42,577 nucleotides of DNA from Chromatiaceae bacterium (lineage in GTDB: Bacteria; Pseudomonadota; Gammaproteobacteria; Chromatiales; Chromatiaceae): the NCBI GenBank assembly GCA_020851955.1, contig JADZBU010000232.1, positions 1 through 42,577 of the forward strand. Reading direction: 5' to 3'. The number at the start of each line of letters is the position of its first letter. Position 1 is the first letter of the stretch. Below the pieces are notes generated by a model. The model had not been told where the DNA came from. It saw only the letters and a list, made by a program, of their open reading frames with translations, and ran no database searches. Below, in pieces: positions 8,018 through 28,979 of the stretch. The position numbers were made by a program, and so were the translations under genes.

Positions 8018-9172
8018 TTGAATATCGAGAAAAGGCTCTATCCTCAGTTTGACGGTTTAAGAGCCATTGCTGTAGGTTTTGTCCTATATCATCACTGGAT
8101 CTGGACGGGCGCCGTGTCACCTAAATACAATGAATGGTATCACTACATATTTAAAGTCCCGCTTGGCGGGCTAGGTGTTTCAATATTTTTCGTGCTGTCG
8201 GGATTTTTAATTACAGAAATACTGTCCAAAGGGAGTTTGTTGAACAAGAATGAAAAAAAGAAATTTATTGTTACATTTTATATAAGGCGTGCCCTGAGAA
8301 TATTTCCAATATATTTTATAACAATTTCAGTTATGGCATTCATTTTTTCAGTCGAGATTGTCCGGCAAGAATTTTTTTGGTTTGCGCTTTATTTAACCAA
8401 CATATTAATATTTATAAAGCAAGATTTTGTTGGTGCCGCAACACACCTGTGGACCTTGGCAATAGAGGAGCAGTTCTATTTGGTGACTCCATTGATTGTT
8501 GTCTACTTCGCCCGGGATTATTGGAAGTTAGCTCTCGGGCTAATTATTGTATCGGCGTTTGTGCAGGCAGTCTGTACATTTTGGCTCGGCGAAATCAGAT
8601 TCATCGGCTTATTGCCAATATTAAGTATGCAGGCTTTGGCAATTGGTGGATTGCTTTCCCTTCAAGATGATATTTCTAGGATAATTGAAAGGGGATCGTA
8701 TCTGTTGGCTTTAACAATGCTTGTGGTTTTCCCGCTTCAGGCTATAGGAGTAGTCCATCCATTACTAGGCATAATTAGCTCATATGGGATTATTGCATTG
8801 TCTGTTTTGCTGGTGGCAGGCGCAAAGCGCGGGTTTAAAGGATTAGGAGGCGCGATTCTGAACTATTATTTACTCTCCTATCTAGGCGTCATAAGTTATG
8901 GTATTTACCTATACCATAATTTCATTGGAATAATATTGGAATATTTTACCACAAAAGCGGGTTGGGAGCTTGATGAGATGGGAGTTGCTGGAAATCTTAT
9001 TTTGAAGTTGTTTTTCACGATTTTATTAGCAAATTTATCATGGATTTTTATTGAGCGACCTATTAATAACTTTAAAAGATATTTCCCTTACTTGGTACTA
9101 CCCCAAAAAACCGTTAAAACTGTATTGCGACCCCTACTGCAAGATGGTTCCAGAGGGGATAATCCTGTGTAG
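8018..9172 (+). CDS. acyltransferase 3 family (OafA/YrhL-like), TTG start
   Basis: QFDGLRAIAVGFVLYHHW, GLGVSIFFVLSGFLITEIL, FYIRRALRIFPIYF, HLWTLAIEEQFYLVTPL motifs; only clear plus-strand gene in the window. Confidence 0.92.
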   Translation: MNIEKRLYPQFDGLRAIAVGFVLYHHWIWTGAVSPKYNEWYHYIFKVPLGGLGVSIFFVLSGFLITEILSKGSLLNKNEKKKFIVTFYIRRALRIFPIYFITISVMAFIFSVEIVRQEFFWFALYLTNILIFIKQDFVGAATHLWTLAIEEQFYLVTPLIVVYFARDYWKLALGLIIVSAFVQAVCTFWLGEIRFIGLLPILSMQALAIGGLLSLQDDISRIIERGSYLLALTMLVVFPLQAIGVVHPLLGIISSYGIIALSVLLVAGAKRGFKGLGGAILNYYLLSYLGVISYGIYLYHNFIGIILEYFTTKAGWELDEMGVAGNLILKLFFTILLANLSWIFIERPINNFKRYFPYLVLPQKTVKTVLRPLLQDGSRGDNPV

Positions 9173-9205
9173 TGGCCGTTTCTATGGTGCGGATACCTTT
9201 GTTGT

Positions 9206-10093
9206 TTAATCTGTTATGTGCTTGTTATACAGTAAAACCAGTCTTCGCCTAATCTTTTGCTGGACGTGTTTCAATTTATCCCAAAAGCTGGGTATGGAAT
9301 AAGCTTTATTTCTCCAAGCGTCCACGGAAGTAAGGGCAAAACCCGCTTGACGTCTGCGGCTATTCACTCTCTCCATCAAATAATTCATGCACTCTTCACT
9401 TGGCGGAGCAAACATGTGAAAAACAGGCCATTTGCAGTCAGTTGGAGAAGCCGTTCCTATTGCTTCGGCTAGAGGCCAGGGGTGTATGGTTGGGCAAGCA
9501 ATAGAATCTATCGGATATCTGTCGCTCATGATTCCAAAAACCATTTCATCGGCTAAGGTTCCGTGAGCGTATTTTGGGTATTTTTTAATACCAGAAGTGT
9601 AGAACTCGTAACAAGCCTGGAACATATTGGTAACTTCGCGTTTGTAAAATACAAAGATACCGGATGTTCCCCAAAAATAGCGCTTTAAGCCAAAATCAGC
9701 GCAGATCTGTTTTGTGGAGTAATAGGTCTGAATGTCAGCTTCCGAGGAGAAATAGGCACCATACATCGCAAGCGGAGCCGTGAACTCGTATTCGAAAAAT
9801 GGTGAAGGACCAAGAAAAAGGATATCGGCATCCACAAAGACATTATGTTCATAAGGAGTTACCTCCGCTAAAAGAAATTTAGCGCCCCAAGGGTGTACAC
9901 GCTGGGGAAGAGTGATAATTTTATCAAATGGGCTTGGTTTGTAACGGTCCAAATATATTTTCGCGGAGCGATCTACGGCGATTGAAATAGGCTCTGAGTG
10001 ATAGTCTCTTAATGACAAAGCCATATCCAAGGCCATTGCAGCATGTTGTCGCCCGAAGGCAACGCTTATAAACCCTTTGTGGTATGAATTCAT
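9206..10093 (-). CDS. GT-A-type nucleotide-diphospho-sugar transferase (GT8-like)
   Basis: GFISVAFGRQHAAMALDMALSLRDYHSEPISIAVD ... HNVFVDADILFLGPSPFFEY (DxD) ... WGTSGIFVFYKRE. Confidence 0.7.
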   Translation of the reverse strand: MNSYHKGFISVAFGRQHAAMALDMALSLRDYHSEPISIAVDRSAKIYLDRYKPSPFDKIITLPQRVHPWGAKFLLAEVTPYEHNVFVDADILFLGPSPFFEYEFTAPLAMYGAYFSSEADIQTYYSTKQICADFGLKRYFWGTSGIFVFYKREVTNMFQACYEFYTSGIKKYPKYAHGTLADEMVFGIMSDRYPIDSIACPTIHPWPLAEAIGTASPTDCKWPVFHMFAPPSEECMNYLMERVNSRRRQAGFALTSVDAWRNKAYSIPSFWDKLKHVQQKIRRRLVLLYNKHITD

Positions 10094-10131
10094 GCGATTT
10101 CCGATGTTATTTGAAAATATATTTAAGAAAT

Positions 10132-10761
10132 TTAAGCAATCTTTCTTAGTACGCTTATTAAATAAATATCACTCCTCCATTGAGTTACAACCTCAAAATG
10201 ACCGTAGAAGCCATACATCCTAGCCCAGGGATTATCACCGCTAAAATATAAAGAGAAAGTCTCGTGTGTTATTACGTTGACATGGGTGGGGTCACTGAAA
10301 GCGGCCGAATATGGATAAATTGGCGTTTTGGATAGAAAAATACCGGTGGGCTTGAGGACCCTCCATACCTCGTTCATTAATTCAATAAACGCGAATCTTC
10401 GGCTTGGCGCATAAACGACACGGGGAACATGCTCAAGGAAATCGTGAGCAGTAACATAATCAAACGAATAATCTTTGAAGGGGATTCTTTCAAGACTTAA
10501 GTCGACAGACTTTATGCTCCCGCTAGAATTTGGTATAATATCTATGCCAAACAGATGCTTGGCCGAAAACGGATTCCGGGGATGTTCTCCGCAACCAAGA
10601 TCCAGGGCGCTGGAACCGCTTAAACCAAGAGATATAGAGTCATATTCTTTTAGTGCGTTTTCCCACTCTGTATATTCCGGAATTGATAATAAACTCGAAT
10701 ATTGATTTTTTATTATTTTCATTAACTTAAAAGCTTTAACCATCTTTCCTATTATGCTCAT
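10132..10761 (-). CDS. class I SAM-dependent methyltransferase
   Basis: SALDLGCGEHPRNPFSAKHLFGIDI (motif I), FDYVTAHDFLEHVP, NEVWRVLKPTGIFLSKTP. Confidence 0.85.
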   Translation of the reverse strand: MSIIGKMVKAFKLMKIIKNQYSSLLSIPEYTEWENALKEYDSISLGLSGSSALDLGCGEHPRNPFSAKHLFGIDIIPNSSGSIKSVDLSLERIPFKDYSFDYVTAHDFLEHVPRVVYAPSRRFAFIELMNEVWRVLKPTGIFLSKTPIYPYSAAFSDPTHVNVITHETFSLYFSGDNPWARMYGFYGHFEVVTQWRSDIYLISVLRKIA

Positions 10762-10820
10762 TATATTTCACCCATCAAAAAAGCAATCTTATAAAAAAGC
10801 AAAATCTAGCGTTAAGCATT

Positions 10821-11534
10821 TTAAACGCCAATGAAGCCTCTCCATATTCTAAGCGCTCGTTGCATCACGGAAGAAAAGAATCCTTGCGGATCATACCTGA
10901 GACGTAAAAGACGACGGATATAGCGATTCCAGTAGGTTTCATCACGCTTTACAACCTCCTTAATATTTTTAAAAATCTTATTTGTTGAAATCGAGTGCTC
11001 TTGCCATCGATCGGTGAAGCCGGAAATCGCGGCAACTTTTTTTCCCCTCCGGACCGCAAGTTCGAACATGAAATTATCGCCGTACCAAATCTTAAGACCG
11101 CTAGGAATGGCAAAGAAATCAGCTCTCCGAATAAATATCATGCATCCAAAGCCAGATTGAAGAACGCCATGTAACCCCCAATGCAAATCCCCGGTAGGAT
11201 GCGGCCAATCTAACCCAATCAGACCTATTGCGGGATTCATTCGGAACAAATCCACGGCAAACTTAATTATCTCGGTTTTGAATGCGAGATCGTCATTTAG
11301 AAAGCAAATAAATTCGCCGGATGACTTTTTTGCGCCCAAATTCCATGCTGGGTTGACGTAGATATTCCGTCTTTGTTTCAATATTTCGATTTTATCATGC
11401 TGTAGATCAGGTGCCTCGTGAGGGTTATTGTCAATAACAAGAATTTCCTTGACTAATGCACATTGTGCTATGTCTGTAACTCGTGAAGGAAAGGTTGGGT
11501 CGGCCCATAAGGTGGGCACAATGATACTGACCAC
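10821..11534 (-). CDS. glycosyltransferase family 2
   Basis: MVSIIVPTLWADPTFPSRV... EILVIDNNPHE ... YVNPAWNLGAKKSSGEFICFLNDDLAF. Confidence 0.87.
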   Translation of the reverse strand: MVSIIVPTLWADPTFPSRVTDIAQCALVKEILVIDNNPHEAPDLQHDKIEILKQRRNIYVNPAWNLGAKKSSGEFICFLNDDLAFKTEIIKFAVDLFRMNPAIGLIGLDWPHPTGDLHWGLHGVLQSGFGCMIFIRRADFFAIPSGLKIWYGDNFMFELAVRRGKKVAAISGFTDRWQEHSISTNKIFKNIKEVVKRDETYWNRYIRRLLRLRYDPQGFFSSVMQRALRIWRGFIGV

Positions 11535-19573: not shown

Positions 19574-20560
19574 TCACTCGCGACCATACCACTCGACGGC
19601 ATGTCGAATGCCTTCTTCAATCGCAATAGCCGCCTCAAAACCAAATGCTGCCTGCTTGGTGATTGCACCCCCCCGAGCAAAGACCCCCGTTGGCTTATTG
19701 GACAGTCCGACGACCTCCGGCGTATAGCCACAGGCTTCCGCCGCCATGCCTGCAAACTGCCTGAAACTGGTGTAGATGCCGGTGGACAGATTCAAGGCAT
19801 CGCCGTCATTGATTTTATCCATCGTCGTCAGAACGCCGTCAACGCAATCCTCGATATGGATAAAATCGCGCATCTGATCGCCCGTCCCCCAGACGGTGAG
19901 GGTCGGGGACCCGACCGCTGCCATGGCCCGCTTGATGATGCTGGGGAACGGATAGGTATCATCCTGGTCCTCCCCGTACCCGGAGAAGGGTCGGTAACAG
20001 ACCGACTTCAGCCCATGCTTCTCGAAGGCGAGACGCGCGAGGTACTCACAGGTCAGCTTTGCCCAACCATAGGTCATATCCGGCATGCCGATACGCGCAT
20101 CGAAGCTGATATCGTCCTCGCGCAGGAGGCGATAACCCTCTTGACGCTGAAGGTCGATCGGGTAGGCGGCGCTCGAAGAGAAACAGACGGTCTTCGCCGG
20201 CCGTGCCGCCTCGGCCCACTGCCAGTATCCGGCATCGATAGCCAGATCGTCGGCGACCGCGAGCGGGCGGTTCTCGATCATGGCCCGACCGCCCACCATG
20301 GCCGCCAGATGAAAGGCATAGTCAAAATCAGTATCCCCGTGTTCCCGAAACCAAGGCCGACAATCCTCGCGATAAAACCGGAAATTGGAAAAGTCGCGGG
20401 GCTCGAAGAGCGGCCATCCCGCGCCGGTTTCAGGGTCGATACCACCGGTGTCCGGTGCGATGGGGTCAACACAATGGACTTCATCGCCTACTTCCAACAG
20501 GCGCCTACAAAAGCGGCGACCGACGAAGCCAGCACCGCCGGTTACGAGAATTTTTCGCAT
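19574..20560 (-). CDS. NAD(P)-dependent epimerase/dehydratase (extended SDR)
   Basis: Start placed at MRKILVTGGAGFVGRRF (Rossmann GxxGxxG); FSSSAAYPIDL; MTYGWAKLTCEYLAR (YxxxK catalytic motif intact). Confidence 0.9.
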   Translation of the reverse strand: MRKILVTGGAGFVGRRFCRRLLEVGDEVHCVDPIAPDTGGIDPETGAGWPLFEPRDFSNFRFYREDCRPWFREHGDTDFDYAFHLAAMVGGRAMIENRPLAVADDLAIDAGYWQWAEAARPAKTVCFSSSAAYPIDLQRQEGYRLLREDDISFDARIGMPDMTYGWAKLTCEYLARLAFEKHGLKSVCYRPFSGYGEDQDDTYPFPSIIKRAMAAVGSPTLTVWGTGDQMRDFIHIEDCVDGVLTTMDKINDGDALNLSTGIYTSFRQFAGMAAEACGYTPEVVGLSNKPTGVFARGGAITKQAAFGFEAAIAIEEGIRHAVEWYGRE

Positions 20561-21639
20561 GTCCTGTAAAGATCCGTATAGAGCCTTGCGCATTGCTCAA
20601 CAGTCCATTGACTGAGAGCCCGTTCCCGGTTGGCGGCCGAAATCTCACCACCCGCGGCCAGTCGAAATCCCTCCTCCATGGCCGCCGCGGCGGTCTCGGG
20701 ATGATCCGGATCGAAGACCGGATTACCGGTCTCACGCAGCAACTCCCCCACATCCCAGGAATCTGGCCCTACGACGACCCGACCGAAGGTCATGCCGAGG
20801 GTGATATTTCCAGAATTCAGGACCCGCAGGCGGGGGATAAAGAGCACATCGGCCGCATTCAGATAGCGTTGGGCGTCGGATTCGGCGACGAAGCCGTAGT
20901 TGAAGGTGAAGCGGGGATGCAGGCGATACCAGAGCCGCGTGAGGTCGCGAATCCAATATTTAAGGCGTATCCATGACACGTCGGCAAGTTGCTCACGCCA
21001 TCTGGAAACCAACAAATGTTTGTGCTTCACCCGAATCCCACGAAAGGTTTCCAAGATGAGCTGCCGCTCTGCGTCATTACGAATCGCGCCAAAGACCAAC
21101 ATGACCCGCGCATTCGGGGCGATCCGGAGTGCCCGGCGCGCCTCGGCACGGGAAACGGTATTCGGCAGGCTCGCGTAATTCTGGTGGGGGATGATGGCAT
21201 GCACCGGTGCGTGACCGCGATAAAAGGCCATCCCGGCGTAACGCTCGCGAAATTCATCGATGCTCGCCTGGGCAAAGTGGGCCACGCCATCCGCATAGTG
21301 ATAGACGGCTTTATACAGGCGTTCCCACATCGGATCGGACAAGGCATCGTGTGGCAGAAGCACATGTCGGGTGATGACAATGTGTGCTCGCTCCGCCCAC
21401 CAGCGTAGCCGCTCCTCCGTGTCCGCGATGAGGGTGTCCGTGAGTCCGGTCAGGTAGGCTTCCTGTAAGGCATAAGTCAGATATTCCGGGAAGTGGAGGT
21501 GAACCACATCGAAGGCGCCCTCCCGGTTCCAGAAGATTTCGGCATCATGCACGACCTGGTGGTGATTGCCTAGGGCTGCGTTGAGGTCAACGAGGAAGCG
21601 GTTTGTCGGCAGTGGGATATTGGCTACAAGGATGCGCAT
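20542..21639 (-). CDS. glycosyltransferase (GT-B-like)
   Basis: MRILVANIPLPTNRFLVDLNAALGNHHQVVHDAEIFWNREGAFDVVHLHFPEYLTY; MLVFGAIRNDAERQLILETFRGI; YLNAADVLFIPRLRVLNSGNITLGMTFGRVVVGPD. Confidence 0.75.
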   Translation of the reverse strand: MRILVANIPLPTNRFLVDLNAALGNHHQVVHDAEIFWNREGAFDVVHLHFPEYLTYALQEAYLTGLTDTLIADTEERLRWWAERAHIVITRHVLLPHDALSDPMWERLYKAVYHYADGVAHFAQASIDEFRERYAGMAFYRGHAPVHAIIPHQNYASLPNTVSRAEARRALRIAPNARVMLVFGAIRNDAERQLILETFRGIRVKHKHLLVSRWREQLADVSWIRLKYWIRDLTRLWYRLHPRFTFNYGFVAESDAQRYLNAADVLFIPRLRVLNSGNITLGMTFGRVVVGPDSWDVGELLRETGNPVFDPDHPETAAAAMEEGFRLAAGGEISAANRERALSQWTVEQCARLYTDLYRTCEKFS

Positions 21640-21673
21640 AACTGAATCATTCAGATGAATCTTCTCATCCCAG

Positions 21674-21698
21674 CCCCCTCCCCCCTTGCGGGGGAGGG
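21674..21698. repeat. short G/C palindromic hairpin (REP-like or terminator-like) between two GT genes
   Basis: CCCTCCCCC-CTTGC-GGGGGAGGG, a perfect 9-bp stem in the 74-bp gap between 20542-21639 and 21714-22907; followed by GTTGGGGAGAGGGGG. Confidence 0.6.
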
Positions 21699-21713
21699 TT
21701 GGGGAGAGGGGGT

Positions 21714-22907
21714 TTAAAGGCTCTGTTTAAACTGTCTCGCCTCGTCGATGATCTTGTCGATGCATCCAATGTGCCGATCGATATTGAAATTGGCTCGAAT
21801 ATGCGCCCGCGCGGCGTCACCCAATCTCCGGCAGAGTTCCTGATCATCAAGCAGCGTCCGCATGTAATGCGCCATGCCGTCAACATCCCGTTCCTCGACC
21901 AGATACCCAGTTTTACCGTGTATGACCGCATCGGGAATCCCGGCATGCCGAGTTGAAAGGACGGGTAGGCCAGCCGCACCCGCTTCCAGGATGGCCACCG
22001 GTGTGCCTTCCGCATCGCCATAGGTGGGTATCACCGAATGCTGGACAAAACAACACGCCTGAGAAAAGAGCGGGACGACCTCCTCATGGCGCAGTGCCCC
22101 CGGGAAAGAGACCTGCGATTCAATATTCCAGGTCCTGGCCAGGGTCTGGCAGACCTCCAGCAGTTCGCCATGCCCCCCCATCACTAGATTTGCATCAGGG
22201 TGGGTTGTTAGAACCTGCTTGAAGGCCATCAGGGTGAGGTAGGGGGCCTTGATGTCAGTGAATCTGCCGAGGGCGAGGAAGGTCTTCCGATAGTCCGAGC
22301 GGTTTTCATAGAAAGACACGCGAGGGCCGTAGGGGTTATAGACAATCTTTTCCGGATCGGCACCCATGCGTATCAACTTCTCGGTCATAAAGTGCGATAC
22401 GCTGAGCAGTTTAAAGGCGTAGTCAAACATGCCCAGATAACGATTCTTGTAGCCCTCGAGGAGGGGATCGCGGTGGGCATCGTGGCCATGGAAATGGACG
22501 ATAAGGGGGATTCCCAGATCACGGGCATGAGGAAAAATGGATGAACCATGAATGCCAAATTCAGCAAGAATGACGTCAACCTTATGGATCCTCATAAACG
22601 CTGCGATCGCATCCTGCCGGCCGGCATAGGTCTCTTCCCACAAAGTCACATAACGATGATAGAGCCAGTGCGGAAGTAGCTTTGCAAGCTTTTTCAGTAA
22701 AGGGCGTTGACCGTAGAAATAGCGAATCTGTTGGCCTTTGAACGTGAGCTTGGGGTAGTACTCGGTAAGTGCTACCTTATCGCCAGCCAGATACTCGACA
22801 TGGGCACGGATGAAGGAAGAGCTATGGAAATTATCGTCGCCTTGAATGATGCAGGTTGCCATATCAGTTCGATCCGTTGGTTCGCGATAGCGCCAACCGA
22901 ATATCAA
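21714..22907 (-). CDS. glycosyltransferase family 4 (colanic-acid WcaL-like)
   Basis: VDVILAEFGIHGSSIFPHARDLGIPLIVHFHGHDAHRD; LALGRFTDIKAPYLTLMAF; FVQHSVIPTYGDAEGTPVAILEAGAAGLPVLSTRHAGIPDAV. Actual start may be internal at MATCIIQGDDNFHSS. Confidence 0.92.
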   Translation of the reverse strand: MIFGWRYREPTDRTDMATCIIQGDDNFHSSSFIRAHVEYLAGDKVALTEYYPKLTFKGQQIRYFYGQRPLLKKLAKLLPHWLYHRYVTLWEETYAGRQDAIAAFMRIHKVDVILAEFGIHGSSIFPHARDLGIPLIVHFHGHDAHRDPLLEGYKNRYLGMFDYAFKLLSVSHFMTEKLIRMGADPEKIVYNPYGPRVSFYENRSDYRKTFLALGRFTDIKAPYLTLMAFKQVLTTHPDANLVMGGHGELLEVCQTLARTWNIESQVSFPGALRHEEVVPLFSQACCFVQHSVIPTYGDAEGTPVAILEAGAAGLPVLSTRHAGIPDAVIHGKTGYLVEERDVDGMAHYMRTLLDDQELCRRLGDAARAHIRANFNIDRHIGCIDKIIDEARQFKQSL

Positions 22908-24848
22908 TTAATTGGATTGTGGCTTGGTATAATTAGCTAACATCGGTCCTAAAACGCTTTTTGTTATTAAATTATTTGTAAGCATAATCGACCCTTCGCT
23001 TGACAGATGCCCGCTATCCCATGAACTAAGAGTAAAACCACTTTTACTCTTAATAACAGCCGGGCACAAGTCTTGTTTACAAATATTATCAATTATTGAA
23101 ATGAAGGTAGCGCCACCCTCGCTCGCTATCGAGGAAATTTCCTGGTCAATATCATGCAATTCGTGATAGCTTGAAATTCTTAGATTTGATTCATGGGTCA
23201 TGTCATTTCGTTTTTCAGCTAGATAGCGAGGTAACTCAGGTTTCCACTCAGGAGCATTGCCAAATATAATAATTTCTGATTCCGGAATAATTTTATGTAA
23301 TAAAGCGCAGGTGTCCTTTAGTTTGCCGATCTCTTCATTGTAAACAATCCAATGGGCGAATAATATAATATGTTTTGGGCGCAATAATTTGATTTTTTCA
23401 ATAATAAATTCATTTGTTTCCCCGCAGGGAGGGTTCCAGGGGACCATCACATCGGCAATGGGAGGGCAGGAGCCGGCAGTGTAATGAATTACATTACTAA
23501 AGCTGTTTCTCATGCCAAAAGAAAGAGTGGCTGCATAAGAGTCCCCCCATATGAAAATAGCGTCTTCTTGTGTCGACGGCATGCATTTATAATCGAATTC
23601 TAAAAATCGATGACCACCTTCGATAAAGCAATCCCAAATCTCAGCCATTTTTGATAGGTCTTGTTCTTTAAAATTGAGAATATATTGTTGATCTTCGGAA
23701 TATCGCTTCTCGAAACCTTTGTTGATGTGACCAAAGAAACCAGTCAGCCCAAAAAATACAGACCCCAATATCGCGAAAAGGAAAATCTTCCTTCTACTAA
23801 AAAGCCCTTTAACCCTAAATGGCGATTCGATGAAACGCCAGCTAAAGTAAGCTAACGCGAACGATAATAAGCAAAGCAAAAGGAGCAATCCCGTGCTCGA
23901 CTCGGTTGTGCTTGAATATTTATTGAAAGCAAAGATTGGTTGGTGGAATAAATATGCACTGTAGCTGAGCAGGCCAATAAATACTAGCCATTTGATTCCT
24001 AATAATCGGCCAACAAAGGTGTCTTGTGTTGAATATATGATTATTAAGGCCGTGCCGACGGTCGGGATTAAAGCATGAAAGCCGGGATAGAGAGTTGCCT
24101 TATCGAAAACAAAAATGGCGTAAACTAGCAGAGCTAAACCAACTATACCAAATGATTCGTTTAAGGCCCTATTTGATACTATCGATTCATGTGGTTTCGA
24201 TTTTTGAATAAAAAAAATCGCGATTAGCGCGCCGATAGCGAGTTCCCAACCACGCGTAGGGAGGAGGAAATAATTAGCTACGGGGTAATTATATGATCCA
24301 TATGCTGCCAAGGAAAAACTGACTATAGCCGTTAAGCCGATCGCAAAAAAAATCCAATGTTTATTCATCCTCCACATGAATAAGAATGATAAGGGGAACA
24401 GCAAATAATACTGTTCTTCAACCGCTAAGCTCCATGTATGTAAAAGGGGATTCAGTTCAACTGCAGTGGCGAAATATCCACTTTCTCTCCAAAAAAAGAT
24501 ATTGGATATAAAAAAAGCCACAGCGGCAAGACTGTCGGAGAATTTTATTAGTTCATGCGGCGGCAACCACCACCAGGCAAAGGGAAGGCAGCAAAATAAA
24601 ACGAAAAAAAGCGCAGGCAAAAGGCGGCGTGCTCTTCTCTCATAAAATCGTGCAAGGGAGAATCGCCCATTCTCCATGTCTTCGAGAATAATAGTCGTGA
24701 TAAGATAGCCACTAATAACAAAAAAAACATCGACGCCAACAAATCCACCTTCAAATATGTTAAGTCCACTGTGAAATAAAATGACAGGCACAACTGCAAC
24801 GGCTCGTAACCCATCAATTTCTTTTCTGTATTTCAATACCCTCTCCAA
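22908..24848 (-). CDS. acyltransferase 3 family with C-terminal SGNH domain (OafA-like)
   Basis: YRKEIDGLRAVAVVPVILFHSG, GGFVGVDVFFVISGYLITTIILEDMENGRFSLARFYERRARRLLPALF, LLHTWSLAVEEQYYLLFPL; C-terminal IFIWGDSYAATLSFGM (GDS) and WDSGHLSSEGS (DxxH). Confidence 0.95.
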   Translation of the reverse strand: MERVLKYRKEIDGLRAVAVVPVILFHSGLNIFEGGFVGVDVFFVISGYLITTIILEDMENGRFSLARFYERRARRLLPALFFVLFCCLPFAWWWLPPHELIKFSDSLAAVAFFISNIFFWRESGYFATAVELNPLLHTWSLAVEEQYYLLFPLSFLFMWRMNKHWIFFAIGLTAIVSFSLAAYGSYNYPVANYFLLPTRGWELAIGALIAIFFIQKSKPHESIVSNRALNESFGIVGLALLVYAIFVFDKATLYPGFHALIPTVGTALIIIYSTQDTFVGRLLGIKWLVFIGLLSYSAYLFHQPIFAFNKYSSTTESSTGLLLLLCLLSFALAYFSWRFIESPFRVKGLFSRRKIFLFAILGSVFFGLTGFFGHINKGFEKRYSEDQQYILNFKEQDLSKMAEIWDCFIEGGHRFLEFDYKCMPSTQEDAIFIWGDSYAATLSFGMRNSFSNVIHYTAGSCPPIADVMVPWNPPCGETNEFIIEKIKLLRPKHIILFAHWIVYNEEIGKLKDTCALLHKIIPESEIIIFGNAPEWKPELPRYLAEKRNDMTHESNLRISSYHELHDIDQEISSIASEGGATFISIIDNICKQDLCPAVIKSKSGFTLSSWDSGHLSSEGSIMLTNNLITKSVLGPMLANYTKPQSN

Positions 24849-24991
24849 TAGTTTTTCGAATTATTTTCAAGAGTGATGCTGTTAATTAAAATTGTTAAAG
24901 GGTGCATGGTGATGCTCAATAATTTCCGATTGGCTTGTTAAGTGAAAAAAGTACGTAACGACCCATTGATTTTCATTTATTAATATAATGG

Positions 24992-25993
24992 TCAGGTATT
25001 TCTGTGCTTCATGATGGCGCTTAATCGTCGCCTCACCTCTGCTTGGATTTTTTGCAAAATGAATTGAAGTTTGTCAGTACCATGCTGCGTTTTCCTATTA
25101 AACCGCTGAATACGCTTTTTCAAAGGGGAGATTGGTGGACTCGAATTTTCTGTAACCCCGCGAAAAAAACAGCAATAAGCCGCATCCGTCAGGCGGTCTG
25201 GCAATCGGTCGTCGCGGAAGATGGGCGCGGACACATATTTCTCCCAAAGCGCCTCGTCGGCATCGATTCGCAACACCTCCTCGATGACTGCTTCGAAATC
25301 CGGAAAACGCTGCACGTTGATAAAGCAATCGGGGTTGAAGTCTTCTTCAATGTAGGGATCCCCCCAATAGATCGGGATGCTTCCCTGCAAAAGCGGTTCG
25401 ATGATTTTCTCGGTGGCATAACCCGGATGGCTCTCGTTCTCAAAGGCGATCGTAAATTTGCAGCGAGCAAGGTACGCGGATTTGTCATCAATCCGACCAC
25501 CAAGGTTGTTCATCACCTTGCCACCGGAATCGACGGTTTTACGATGGTTAAGGAGTTGGAAGAATTCAATTCGGTGCCTTGCCCTATCGTTGCTATAGAT
25601 GAAATTACAGAACCGATCCACCCGCTGGCAAACGACGGAAAAATCCCGTTGCACCTGGGTGTGGCCGGGATCGTAGTAATGCCTCCAGAGCGGTGCCCGC
25701 CAGTGACGGTCATCCCAGATGCGCTCGTGGGTTAGCGCATAATCCGCCTCACGCCAGTCCGGTGCAATATTTTCGCCAGTAACAAAGATCCGCCGTGTCC
25801 GCGATGGGTAGCATAAGTGTTCACCATTGCCGATATCACCGTAGAAAAGGAAATCAGGCTTGGCATCCCACCGGAATTGAAAATGTCGTGCCAGCAGCCA
25901 AACGGGAAACCAGGAATACTCCGGCGGCGTCTCGTCCGAAAGTCCACGAAAGGTTGGTCGGCATATGTTGGCAGATATGATTGAAGGTTTCAT
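24992..25993 (-). CDS. alpha-(1,3)-fucosyltransferase family GT10
   Basis: FTIAFENESHPGYATEKIIEPLLQGSIPIYWGDPYIEEDFNPDCFINV matches the GT10 acceptor/donor motif; FNFIYSN segment; RBS AGGAG just before ATG. Confidence 0.9.
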   Translation of the reverse strand: MKPSIISANICRPTFRGLSDETPPEYSWFPVWLLARHFQFRWDAKPDFLFYGDIGNGEHLCYPSRTRRIFVTGENIAPDWREADYALTHERIWDDRHWRAPLWRHYYDPGHTQVQRDFSVVCQRVDRFCNFIYSNDRARHRIEFFQLLNHRKTVDSGGKVMNNLGGRIDDKSAYLARCKFTIAFENESHPGYATEKIIEPLLQGSIPIYWGDPYIEEDFNPDCFINVQRFPDFEAVIEEVLRIDADEALWEKYVSAPIFRDDRLPDRLTDAAYCCFFRGVTENSSPPISPLKKRIQRFNRKTQHGTDKLQFILQKIQAEVRRRLSAIMKHRNT

Positions 25994-26053
25994 GGCTCCT
26001 AACTGGTCGGTTGTCCCAACAGCCTAACCTTGATATTTTTGGAAGTTACATAG
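25761..26053. repeat. direct repeat copy 1: GT10 5' end plus upstream leader
   Basis: Aligns without gaps to 27291-27583 at a constant offset of 1530; about 16 mismatches over the first 280 positions by hand count. Confidence 0.95.
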
Positions 26054-26060
26054 CCATTTC

Positions 26061-26330
26061 CTATGCACAGTAAGACCCACTTGGAGAGACTAGTATTTGC
26101 CCTGGAAGACTATAGTGGACCCCCTGTCCAAAACAGGTTTCCCCCGAATTTAAGCTATCGCACCCACATTCATCGCAGCAGTTTGGCACTGTCTTAGCCG
26201 CGTCGGAGCAGCCGTTTAAGACGGCATCGCGGAACAGCGATTTAGAGAAATACTCTGTTTCTGTTACGCCGCAGGCGTTCTCAACTAGCTTGCGACATTC
26301 ACGCTTTGTCAACACGCGGTTCGCCAGCAT
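26061..26330 (-). CDS. small Cys-rich ORF, unknown
   Basis: 89 aa with 9 Cys (NCCDECGC cluster), 19 bp downstream of the 26350-27171 gene on the same strand; no obvious RBS; may be a fragment or non-coding. Confidence 0.3.
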   Translation of the reverse strand: MLANRVLTKRECRKLVENACGVTETEYFSKSLFRDAVLNGCSDAAKTVPNCCDECGCDSLNSGETCFGQGVHYSLPGQILVSPSGSYCA

Positions 26331-26349
26331 GGGGGTGTTGCACCTGATT

Positions 26350-27171
26350 CTAGTTTCCGCCCAGTAATCTTTTTAATGCCTTATCCATTTTTTCTTCCTC
26401 AGATCTAAATATATTTCTTCCCTTCAAGCCGTCTATATAAATATTAGGTAAATGATGAATTATATTATCTTCAAACTCTGAAATACATATCATCTTTTTT
26501 ATGCCGCCATACTCATATACATCTGTATTTACTTTGCATTTTACGCTGTATTTATCCATTCGGTTTATTTTGGCCCTAAATATACTACTACACTTATTAA
26601 GTATTCGCCTTTTTAAACTAGTATCATTGACTAATTGCAAGAAATTAAATTTCTTACCCACGCGCAATAACTGTTGTTTTGTTAATATAAAAGTAGCCTG
26701 ATGTAGGTTTGAAAAATGCGCAAATTTCTTCCCACCATATATTTCTATCGAATCGTAAATCCAATCAAAATCACAATGGTATCCTGGATAATACTTCCCG
26801 GTTTCATTTTCTTCGTATTGTATTAAACCAGAAATTCTGTTAGCTGGTAAAATTTTAGTGTATTCTAAATGTCTATCAATATGCTTTTCAACTATTAAAT
26901 GATCATTTTCACCATAAATAAAAATATCAAAATTTTTTCTATTATCCCATATAACCTTTCGGCAAGATAATGGTAAAAATTGGTAATCATCTAATTTGAT
27001 GATATTTAGTTGGTCTATGCCTTGAATTGTTAATGGGATATTGCTTTGCACAATTATAGTAACGCGGTACTTCACAAAGCTTTTTAATTCAGTGATTACC
27101 TGCTCCAAATAATTTAACTGTTCATCTCCATAATTAACCAATACTGACAATATTTTCTGTTCAATAATCAT
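26350..27171 (-). CDS. AT-rich gene, glycosyltransferase-like protein of unassigned family
   Basis: 273 aa uninterrupted frame in very AT-rich DNA: ILSVLVNYGDEQLNYLEQVITELKSFVKYRVTIIVQSN ... FDIFIYGENDHLIVEKHIDRHLEYTKIL (DxD-like region replaced by ENDH). Confidence 0.65.
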   Translation of the reverse strand: MIIEQKILSVLVNYGDEQLNYLEQVITELKSFVKYRVTIIVQSNIPLTIQGIDQLNIIKLDDYQFLPLSCRKVIWDNRKNFDIFIYGENDHLIVEKHIDRHLEYTKILPANRISGLIQYEENETGKYYPGYHCDFDWIYDSIEIYGGKKFAHFSNLHQATFILTKQQLLRVGKKFNFLQLVNDTSLKRRILNKCSSIFRAKINRMDKYSVKCKVNTDVYEYGGIKKMICISEFEDNIIHHLPNIYIDGLKGRNIFRSEEEKMDKALKRLLGGN

Positions 27172-27523
27172 TTTGGTAGTGCCCTTGACAGCAGGGGTAG
27201 CGCCTCAATCGGCAGGATGTATGGTTAGCGAAAGCCTTATTTACTAGCCAATTTGCCAAGATGCACCCTACGCATTGGGGCAATACCTCCGGGGCAATAT
27301 TTTCACCAGTAACAAAGATCCGCCGTGTCCGCGATTGGTAGCATAAGTGTTCACCATTGTCGATATCACCGTAGAAAAGGAAATCAGGCTTGGCACCCCA
27401 CCGAAATTTAAAATGTCGTGCCAGCAGCCAAACAGGAAACCAGGAATACTCCGGCGGCGTCACGTCTGAAAGTCCACGGAAGGTTGGTAGGCATAAGTTG
27501 GCAGATATGATTGAAGGTTTCAT
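27161..27523 (-). pseudogene. truncated GT10 5' duplicate (first ~78 aa) fused to an unrelated 42-aa tail
   Basis: MKPSIISANLCLPTFRGLSDVTPPEYSWFPVWLLARHFKFRWGAKPDFLFYGDIDNGEHLCYQSRTRRIFVTGENIAP is nearly identical to the start of 24992-25993; homology ends after GENIAP. Confidence 0.93.
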
Positions 27524-27583
27524 GGCTCCTAACTGGTCGGTTATCCCAACAGCCGCACCTTGATATTTTTAGAAATTATTTAG
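27291..27583. repeat. direct repeat copy 2: GT10 5' end plus upstream leader
   Basis: See copy 1 at 25761-26053. The breakpoint is flanked by a short direct repeat GGGGCAATA (27277-27285 and 27291-27299). Confidence 0.95.
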
Positions 27584-27716
27584 ACACTTGCGAATTAAAA
27601 TATGGCCCGCTGGAAGAGGTTATACTTGACTTTGGAATGCATCCTCGGAAATTTGGCGTCCCAATCATTCCCGAAATAATTCCCGTATAATAAATTATTT
27701 GGTATCAGCATTATTG

Positions 27717-28979
27717 TCAAGAGATCCCATCCATAAGTTTCCGTCGAATGAAACCAACCATTCTGTGTCCCCGGCGCAGGGCTCTCAGCAGGATCGGTAC
27801 CCGAGATGGACGTGGATCGCCACCGCCAAGGGCAGGATTTCTACGAGGTAAATGGATTCGGTACGGGATACGCATAGGCTTGATCTTGACATGCTGATTC
27901 GCCGCCTCATGGAGGAGTCCCGTCCATGCTCGTGCATTGGCTTCAATCGAGAATTCACACTCCACGCGGGCCCGCGCGGCGGCGGACAGCCGCACAAGCA
28001 GATCCGGCTGATCCCGAAGTTGTCGCACGGCCGCCACGAACCCCTCTTCGCGGTCCTCCACGATAAGACCTGTGACCCCATCCTCAACCAACTCAGGGAT
28101 GCCACTGCGCATGCGCAAACAGACTGGTACAACCCCAGCAGCCATTGCCTCAAGAACCGCGATGGGTAAGCCCTCGTAATCCGACAACAGCACTATGACA
28201 TCGGCCTCGAGGAGCCGATCCTGCATCTGCTCTGGGTCGATGCGGCCTACAAGCGTGACGGGTAACCCCACGCCTTCCCTCTTTAGTATGGCTTCAACAT
28301 GTTCACGGTCTGGGCCATCCCCATACAGTGCAGCTTCGGTTCCGGGCACATCACGTACCACTCGACAGAGCGCACGAGTGAGTTCTGAAATCCGCTTCTG
28401 CTCCTCCGCTAGGCGCCCAACAAAGGCCAATCTTAGCCGGTTGCTAGCCGGATAACGGGTTCGGGAAGGTATAGGCACCCCATAGGGAATCCTATGGACC
28501 TGACTTGTACTAGGCGTTTGAGTCAACACCTGCTGTTCCAATAGGCGTGAGACACAGACCAGGTGAGAGACCTGGTATTTGCGCGGTCCAAATACGAATT
28601 CGCTCTGGATTGCACGGTAGAACGGATCGTCCGAGTGTAAAATCCCAATGGTCGGAATGCCGGCTAATCGCGTCCAGCGCCCTGCGAAGTACCCGGCAAC
28701 CACCAAGTTTGGGACGAAGATATCCGGGGGATCCGCTACGAGTTGTTCTAGTACCCATTTAACACGCAGTTCTGATCGCTCATGCGCTGGAGTGACAGCA
28801 CACTCAATGCCCGCCGCGCGCAGTGCTTCCACCAAGGGCCCAGTTTCACCCCAGTGCAGCAGTACTAGACACCGAACTATTATGCCGCGTTCGCAGAGGG
28901 CAGGTAGGAGTCGCATCAACCAAGTTACGGGACCACCAACACTGTCGGGTTTGTCGTAGGCGCAGAAAGCTACCTTCAT
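27717..28979 (-). CDS. glycosyltransferase family 4
   Basis: MKVAFCAYDKPDSVGGPVTWLMRLLPALCERG; LAFVGRLAEEQKRISELTRAL; DVIVLLSDYEGLPIAVLEAMAAGVVPVCLRMRSGIPELVEDG. Confidence 0.94.
   Translation of the reverse strand: MKVAFCAYDKPDSVGGPVTWLMRLLPALCERGIIVRCLVLLHWGETGPLVEALRAAGIECAVTPAHERSELRVKWVLEQLVADPPDIFVPNLVVAGYFAGRWTRLAGIPTIGILHSDDPFYRAIQSEFVFGPRKYQVSHLVCVSRLLEQQVLTQTPSTSQVHRIPYGVPIPSRTRYPASNRLRLAFVGRLAEEQKRISELTRALCRVVRDVPGTEAALYGDGPDREHVEAILKREGVGLPVTLVGRIDPEQMQDRLLEADVIVLLSDYEGLPIAVLEAMAAGVVPVCLRMRSGIPELVEDGVTGLIVEDREEGFVAAVRQLRDQPDLLVRLSAAARARVECEFSIEANARAWTGLLHEAANQHVKIKPMRIPYRIHLPRRNPALGGGDPRPSRVPILLRALRRGHRMVGFIRRKLMDGIS

Follow-up and report, generated by a model that had tools for sequence, protein, structure and literature searches.

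The region described here belongs to a polysaccharide cluster that includes numerous glycosyltransferase genes and an ABC exporter gene, and lies within the 42.6-kb stretch of DNA that was analysed as a whole (hereafter "the window"). It contains an intact gene resembling GT10 alpha-fucosyltransferases (copy A), a truncated second copy of the start of that gene (copy B) and, between the two, an AT-rich gene placed between two element ends (Table 1). All genes here are on the minus strand, which corrects an earlier interpretation made from the sequence alone (the sequence-only reading).

Table 1 Features of the GT10 locus, in window coordinates.
Feature	Position	Strand	Description
GT10 alpha-fucosyltransferase-like gene, copy A	24992..25993	-	Intact, 333 aa; PF00852 E 2.3e-18; PF18025 (FucT_N) E 1.8e-14
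Direct repeat, copy A	25758..26057		High identity to ~26038; weak similarity on to 26109
"Cys-rich ORF"	26061..26330	-	89 aa, composite frame: 139 bp of unmatched DNA, IS3 end and upstream flank
IS3-family terminal remnant	26110..26191	.	Solo end, transposase missing; 74-81% to repeats in family relatives
158 bp between IS end and AT-rich gene	26192..26349	.	No relative of encoded peptide in 273 genomes, no other own-genome DNA match below E 0.3
AT-rich gene	26350..27171	-	273 aa, putative GT-A-type glycosyltransferase; 31-33% identity to N-terminal domain of three proteins (L054, L055 and L056)
ORF B	27161..27523	-	GT10 N-terminal 79 codons continuing through the MITE-like element; PF18025 partial, E 1.2e-6
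Second MITE terminal repeat, partial	27175..27184	+	GGTAGTGCCC; sole exact GGTAGYGCCC in window, 0.14 expected
MITE-like element	27196..27287	.	92 bp; 14-bp terminal inverted repeats GGTAGCGCCTCAAT / ATTGGGGCAATACC
Direct repeat, copy B	27288..27587		Starts at base adjoining the MITE end; weak similarity on to 27639

In copy A, both Pfam GT10 domains score above cutoff and a donor motif of the FEN-x5-Y-x-TEK type is present, which together assign the gene to the GT10 family; the catalytic-type motif FENESHPGYATEK was read in the translation of 24992-25993. The GT10 part of copy B comprises the first 79 codons alone, running from 27523 down to 27288, where the MITE-like element begins. It lacks the C-terminal donor-binding domain, and Pfam recognises the FucT_N part only. 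The reading frame of copy B (ORF B) stays open across the MITE-like element and overlaps the first 11 bp of the AT-rich gene before it stops (27161-27171). Translational coupling between the two could be conceived from this overlap and, since the fused frame ends inside the AT-rich gene, we speculate that the transcription and translation start signals of copy B now help to express it. Promoter and terminator scans gave nothing informative, and an Rfam search returned zero matches.

A repeat search of the window identified one two-copy family of direct repeats: 25758-26057 and 27288-27587 align without gaps at 93% identity over 300 nt with a spacing of 1530, and no second repeat of comparable size is present in the window. 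Sixteen mismatches fall within the first 280 bp (25758-26037) and 22 within all 300 positions, the longest identical runs being 46, 35, 30 and 27 bp. The gapless repeat of about 290 bp described in the sequence-only reading was thus reproduced exactly, offset and mismatches included, and the approximately 60 bp upstream of the ATG and 78 codons that it assigned to both copies correspond to ~65 bp and 79 codons of copy B at high identity. Its suggestion of weaker similarity further upstream also holds in a fixed register: at the same 1530 offset, 26058-26109 is identical at 29 of 52 bases, a level reached by 0 of 20,000 shuffles, and no other plus-strand placement in the window matches this segment as well. 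With the register left free, gapped local alignment reaches marginal significance for this stretch (95 of 2000 shuffles scored equally well). The identity between the copies breaks sharply at ~26038, with 16 mismatches in 281 positions before this point and 29 in 71 after it (Fisher p 2e-12), i.e. identity drops from 94% to 59%. A single-age duplication does not explain this drop, which points either to separate histories of the two units or to gene starts equalised by a conversion tract. Another possibility considered is that the weak upstream homology comes from a lost upstream gene, of which it would be the 3' end; a frame that ends in YFGNDWDAKFPRMHSKVKYNLFQRAIF and a stop precedes copy B. 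The open frame at 27596-27720 on the minus strand, which ends in LYGNYFGNDWDAKFPRMHSKVKYNLFQRAIF and a stop and also precedes copy B, may be the tail of such a gene.

At its inner edge, copy B abuts the MITE-like element: homology to copy A starts at 27288, the base right after the end of the terminal repeat at 27287. The element is short and non-coding, carries terminal inverted repeats and is present in several copies in the genome, as is characteristic of MITEs. Four other full-length copies (74-81% identity; contigs C15, C459, C373 and C6) and two partial ones (C455 and C303) were found in the same genome, the strict terminal-repeat pattern being matched by two MITE copies, and the family is absent from the 19 relatives examined. 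By-eye inspection of the flanks of the aligned copies recognised no constant direct repeat indicative of target-site duplication. The partial second copy of the terminal repeat, GGTAGTGCCC, adjoins the AT-rich gene at its start codon. We also considered whether the 92-bp element might be an integron attC site, but rejected this because the attC core motifs are, by eye, missing.

Homology upstream of copy A extends as far as ~26109, the edge of a match to an IS3-family element (26110-26191). The genome of a family relative, G031, contains four copies of sequence matching this stretch; the element there carries IS3-type orfA/orfB and matches plasmid-borne elements annotated as IS3 family or ISPpu29-like. 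Positions 26110-26191 match the terminal ~80 bp of this multi-copy element, which identifies them as an IS3 end. The likeness to ISPpu29-like IS3 elements (74-81% over these ~80 bp) is confined to one end, without a transposase gene: a complete IS3 element is absent, no transposase ORF was found in 26110-26191, and the IS end shows no recognisable target-site duplication. Between this end and the AT-rich gene, the DNA of 26192-26349 has no other match below E 0.3 in its own genome, and a search of 273 further genomes from the class found no relative of the peptide encoded by 26192-26330. The sequence-only reading had placed a "Cys-rich ORF" (26061-26330) in the segment that recombination would excise. 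Its Cys-rich stretch is supplied by the IS-end segment, and its product has no match in Pfam, NCBIfam or PHROGs. Because the frame is mostly read from the IS end and flank, it probably does not represent a gene.

The AT-rich ORF has a GC content of 29.6% (GC3 27%), compared with ~51-59% GC for most neighbouring genes, and is probably a foreign gene that was imported. Its product gave no significant match in Pfam, NCBIfam, PHROGs, plasmid and phage searches. Three relatives of 481-517 aa were found elsewhere in the phylum, in each of which the related N-terminal domain is followed by a SAM methyltransferase. The motifs FIYxExD and HHLxNxY are conserved between these proteins and that of the window, which reads FIYGEND where the relatives have FIYSEDD and which, unlike them, stands alone without a methyltransferase domain. 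With the alignment of these relatives, AlphaFold modelled the AT-rich protein at pLDDT 65 and pTM 0.66, the single-sequence model reaching pLDDT 32. The best PDB fold matches are GT-A enzymes, namely BoGT6a, alpha-1,3-galactosyltransferase and chondroitin synthase (E 1e-4, TM at most ~0.43). Together, the relatives alignment and these fold matches make a GT-A-type glycosyltransferase the likely, not proven, product of the AT-rich gene. The relatives themselves contain an unnamed GT-A-like "FIYSEDD" domain, fused to the SAM methyltransferase and encoded in sugar-gene neighbourhoods, which lies outside Pfam and NCBIfam.

The best GT10 relative found is encoded on L039, a contig of a Planctomycetaceae MAG, at 66% amino acid identity, and was used as the outgroup for polarising the differences between copies A and B. 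The copies differ at 13 codons (7 nonsynonymous, 6 synonymous; dN 0.040, dS 0.116). Against this single, fairly distant outgroup, 8 of the 13 differences (5 nonsynonymous, 3 synonymous) could be polarised, and 8/8 are derived in copy B (binomial p 0.008). Judged by its sequence, copy B behaves as a decaying remnant under little constraint. The similarity to L039 extends beyond GT10: window positions 20542-25993 correspond to L039 1511-6685, with GT10 and two downstream glycosyltransferase genes (21714-22907 and 20542-21639, one GT4-like) 66-68% identical and in the same order, whereas the genes between the shared ones differ (an acyltransferase in the window, two methyltransferases on the L039 contig). 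GT10 is absent from three same-genus genomes and from all family members tested. A phylum sample of 399 genomes yielded one remote GT10 only (38%), and Azospirillum plasmids carry remote GT10s at 35-37%. Because the counterparts on L039 are in the same order and GT10 is missing in the three same-genus genomes, the cluster is probably horizontally mobile, and it has probably moved between phyla. The repeat and cassette were sought in 55 relatives, in which only the IS end and one short weak match inside the AT-rich gene were found.

We consider it likely that the locus is the scar of a rearrangement, associated with mobile elements, in a surface-glycan cluster that is exchanged horizontally. 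The anatomy of the locus, its element ends, the truncation and, with respect to one outgroup, the derived state of copy B are plainly visible. The scar reading, which the sequence-only reading had listed as an alternative (a scar of cassette acquisition), is supported by the element ends at both inner edges of the duplication, by the foreign composition of the insert (29.6% GC) and by copy B, which besides its truncation is gathering derived changes. From these features we infer an order of events in which two related units, each consisting of a short flank and GT10, would have come to lie in tandem, via duplication or import of a second allele. A MITE-like element would then have cut copy B at codon 79, an IS3 element would have cut the flank of copy A, and the low-GC, probably imported glycosyltransferase gene would have come between the two element ends. 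At present, copy A would provide the fucosyltransferase and copy B would persist as a decaying leader. No intermediate arrangement was found in any relative searched.

Two more specific histories can be envisaged, both of which are sub-models of the scar, so that the confidence we place in them overlaps with that given to the scar itself. A single crossover between the start of the resident GT10 and a segment bringing in the AT-rich gene along with a second GT10 allele is a tentative possibility: it would account for direct repeats flanking foreign DNA and for one whole and one truncated gene, and a divergence of 5.7% in the core against 41% just upstream is more readily explained by alleles of separate origin than by copying in place. 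However, the repeat edges are the MITE and IS ends rather than a plain crossover junction, element insertions or deletions being needed anyway, and the donor sequence was not found. We judge unlikely a history in which tandem GT10 paralogues had their 5' parts homogenised by gene conversion, one of them being later destroyed by element insertions. The weaker yet significant homology past 26038 does resemble a conversion tract on an older duplication, but only ~71 bp of older homology survive and the 3' part of copy B is entirely gone, so that an older full paralogue cannot be shown.

The sequence-only reading had also proposed that the repeat could act as a glycan variation or deletion switch. 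In such a switch, RecA-type recombination between the copies would excise 1530 bp, dropping the AT-rich glycosyltransferase and altering the surface glycan while GT10 is kept. The arithmetic of the proposed excision is correct: at each of the crossover positions sampled, 5 bp apart along the repeat, the product that has lost ~1.53 kb retains an open GT10 ORF of 333 aa. The direct orientation, the length, identity and identical runs of the copies, and an insert encoding a probable glycosyltransferase are all compatible with such a switch. However, since GT10 is intact in the present state, it is not switched and a deletion would change only the AT-rich gene. Moreover, the deletion is one-way, reversal requiring re-acquisition; the copies have diverged rather than being kept alike, copy B holding all polarisable changes; and neither a recombinase gene nor inverted repeats permitting inversion were found at the locus. 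Thus, the switch is possible in principle but unsupported, and we regard it as highly improbable. We think as little of the chances of a one-way, homology-driven loss module, in which the GT10 5' fragment would double as leader of the acquired glycosyltransferase gene and as a substrate for deletion; if it existed, cells would shed the AT-rich glycosyltransferase at a measurable rate, with the surface glycan altered (e.g. under phage pressure) and fucosylation kept. A working switch would be of greater interest; nothing at the locus shows one. Finally, the source assembly is fragmented (475 contigs, 88.9% complete, 4.87% contamination) and repeats are classic misjoin points, which raises the question of a duplication or misjoin created during assembly. 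The copies nevertheless differ at 22/300 positions and have distinct unique flanks, and the junction MITE belongs to a family present on six other contigs of the genome and in 0/19 relatives; an assembly artefact is very improbable indeed.

Polysaccharide clusters commonly contain gene remnants that carry IS or MITE ends, and the locus is a further, clean case. It shares with the glycosyltransferase remnants of O-antigen and capsule clusters a truncated copy, an IS end, a low-GC imported glycosyltransferase gene and the setting of an ABC-exporter polysaccharide cluster. It differs from them in that the truncated copy corresponds to the 5' part of the intact GT10 gene next to it, hence the direct repeat. 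Searches of the literature turned up no direct precedent, either for duplicated fragments of glycosyltransferase genes or for MITEs in clusters of this type. Helicobacter pylori futA/futB are paired GT10 alpha-1,3-fucosyltransferase genes between which segments are exchanged and which undergo phase variation at homopolymers (PMC2583950). The window likewise has two GT10 copies in one genome, between which recombination is possible in principle, but the resemblance is limited, as the second copy is a 79-codon fragment and neither a homopolymer tract nor an exchange between the copies was noticed. The locus provides a clear example of the rebuilding of a surface-glycan cluster, with an allele duplicated or imported, junctions marked by a MITE and an IS3 end, an acquired glycosyltransferase gene of low GC and a leftover gene fragment. 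It also serves as a warning that ORFs and direct repeats at such loci can be by-products of element ends.

Elsewhere in the window, a 33-nt inverted repeat (9087-9119 / 22737-22769) with 73% complementarity is probably due to chance. The gene directly downstream of GT10 (22908-24848, acyltransferase-3/SGNH) is another low-GC gene of the cluster, at 39.9% GC. A second low-GC block (~37-44% GC) at 8018-11534 comprises an acyltransferase-like gene, glycosyltransferase-like genes and a methyltransferase-like gene and was likely acquired too.
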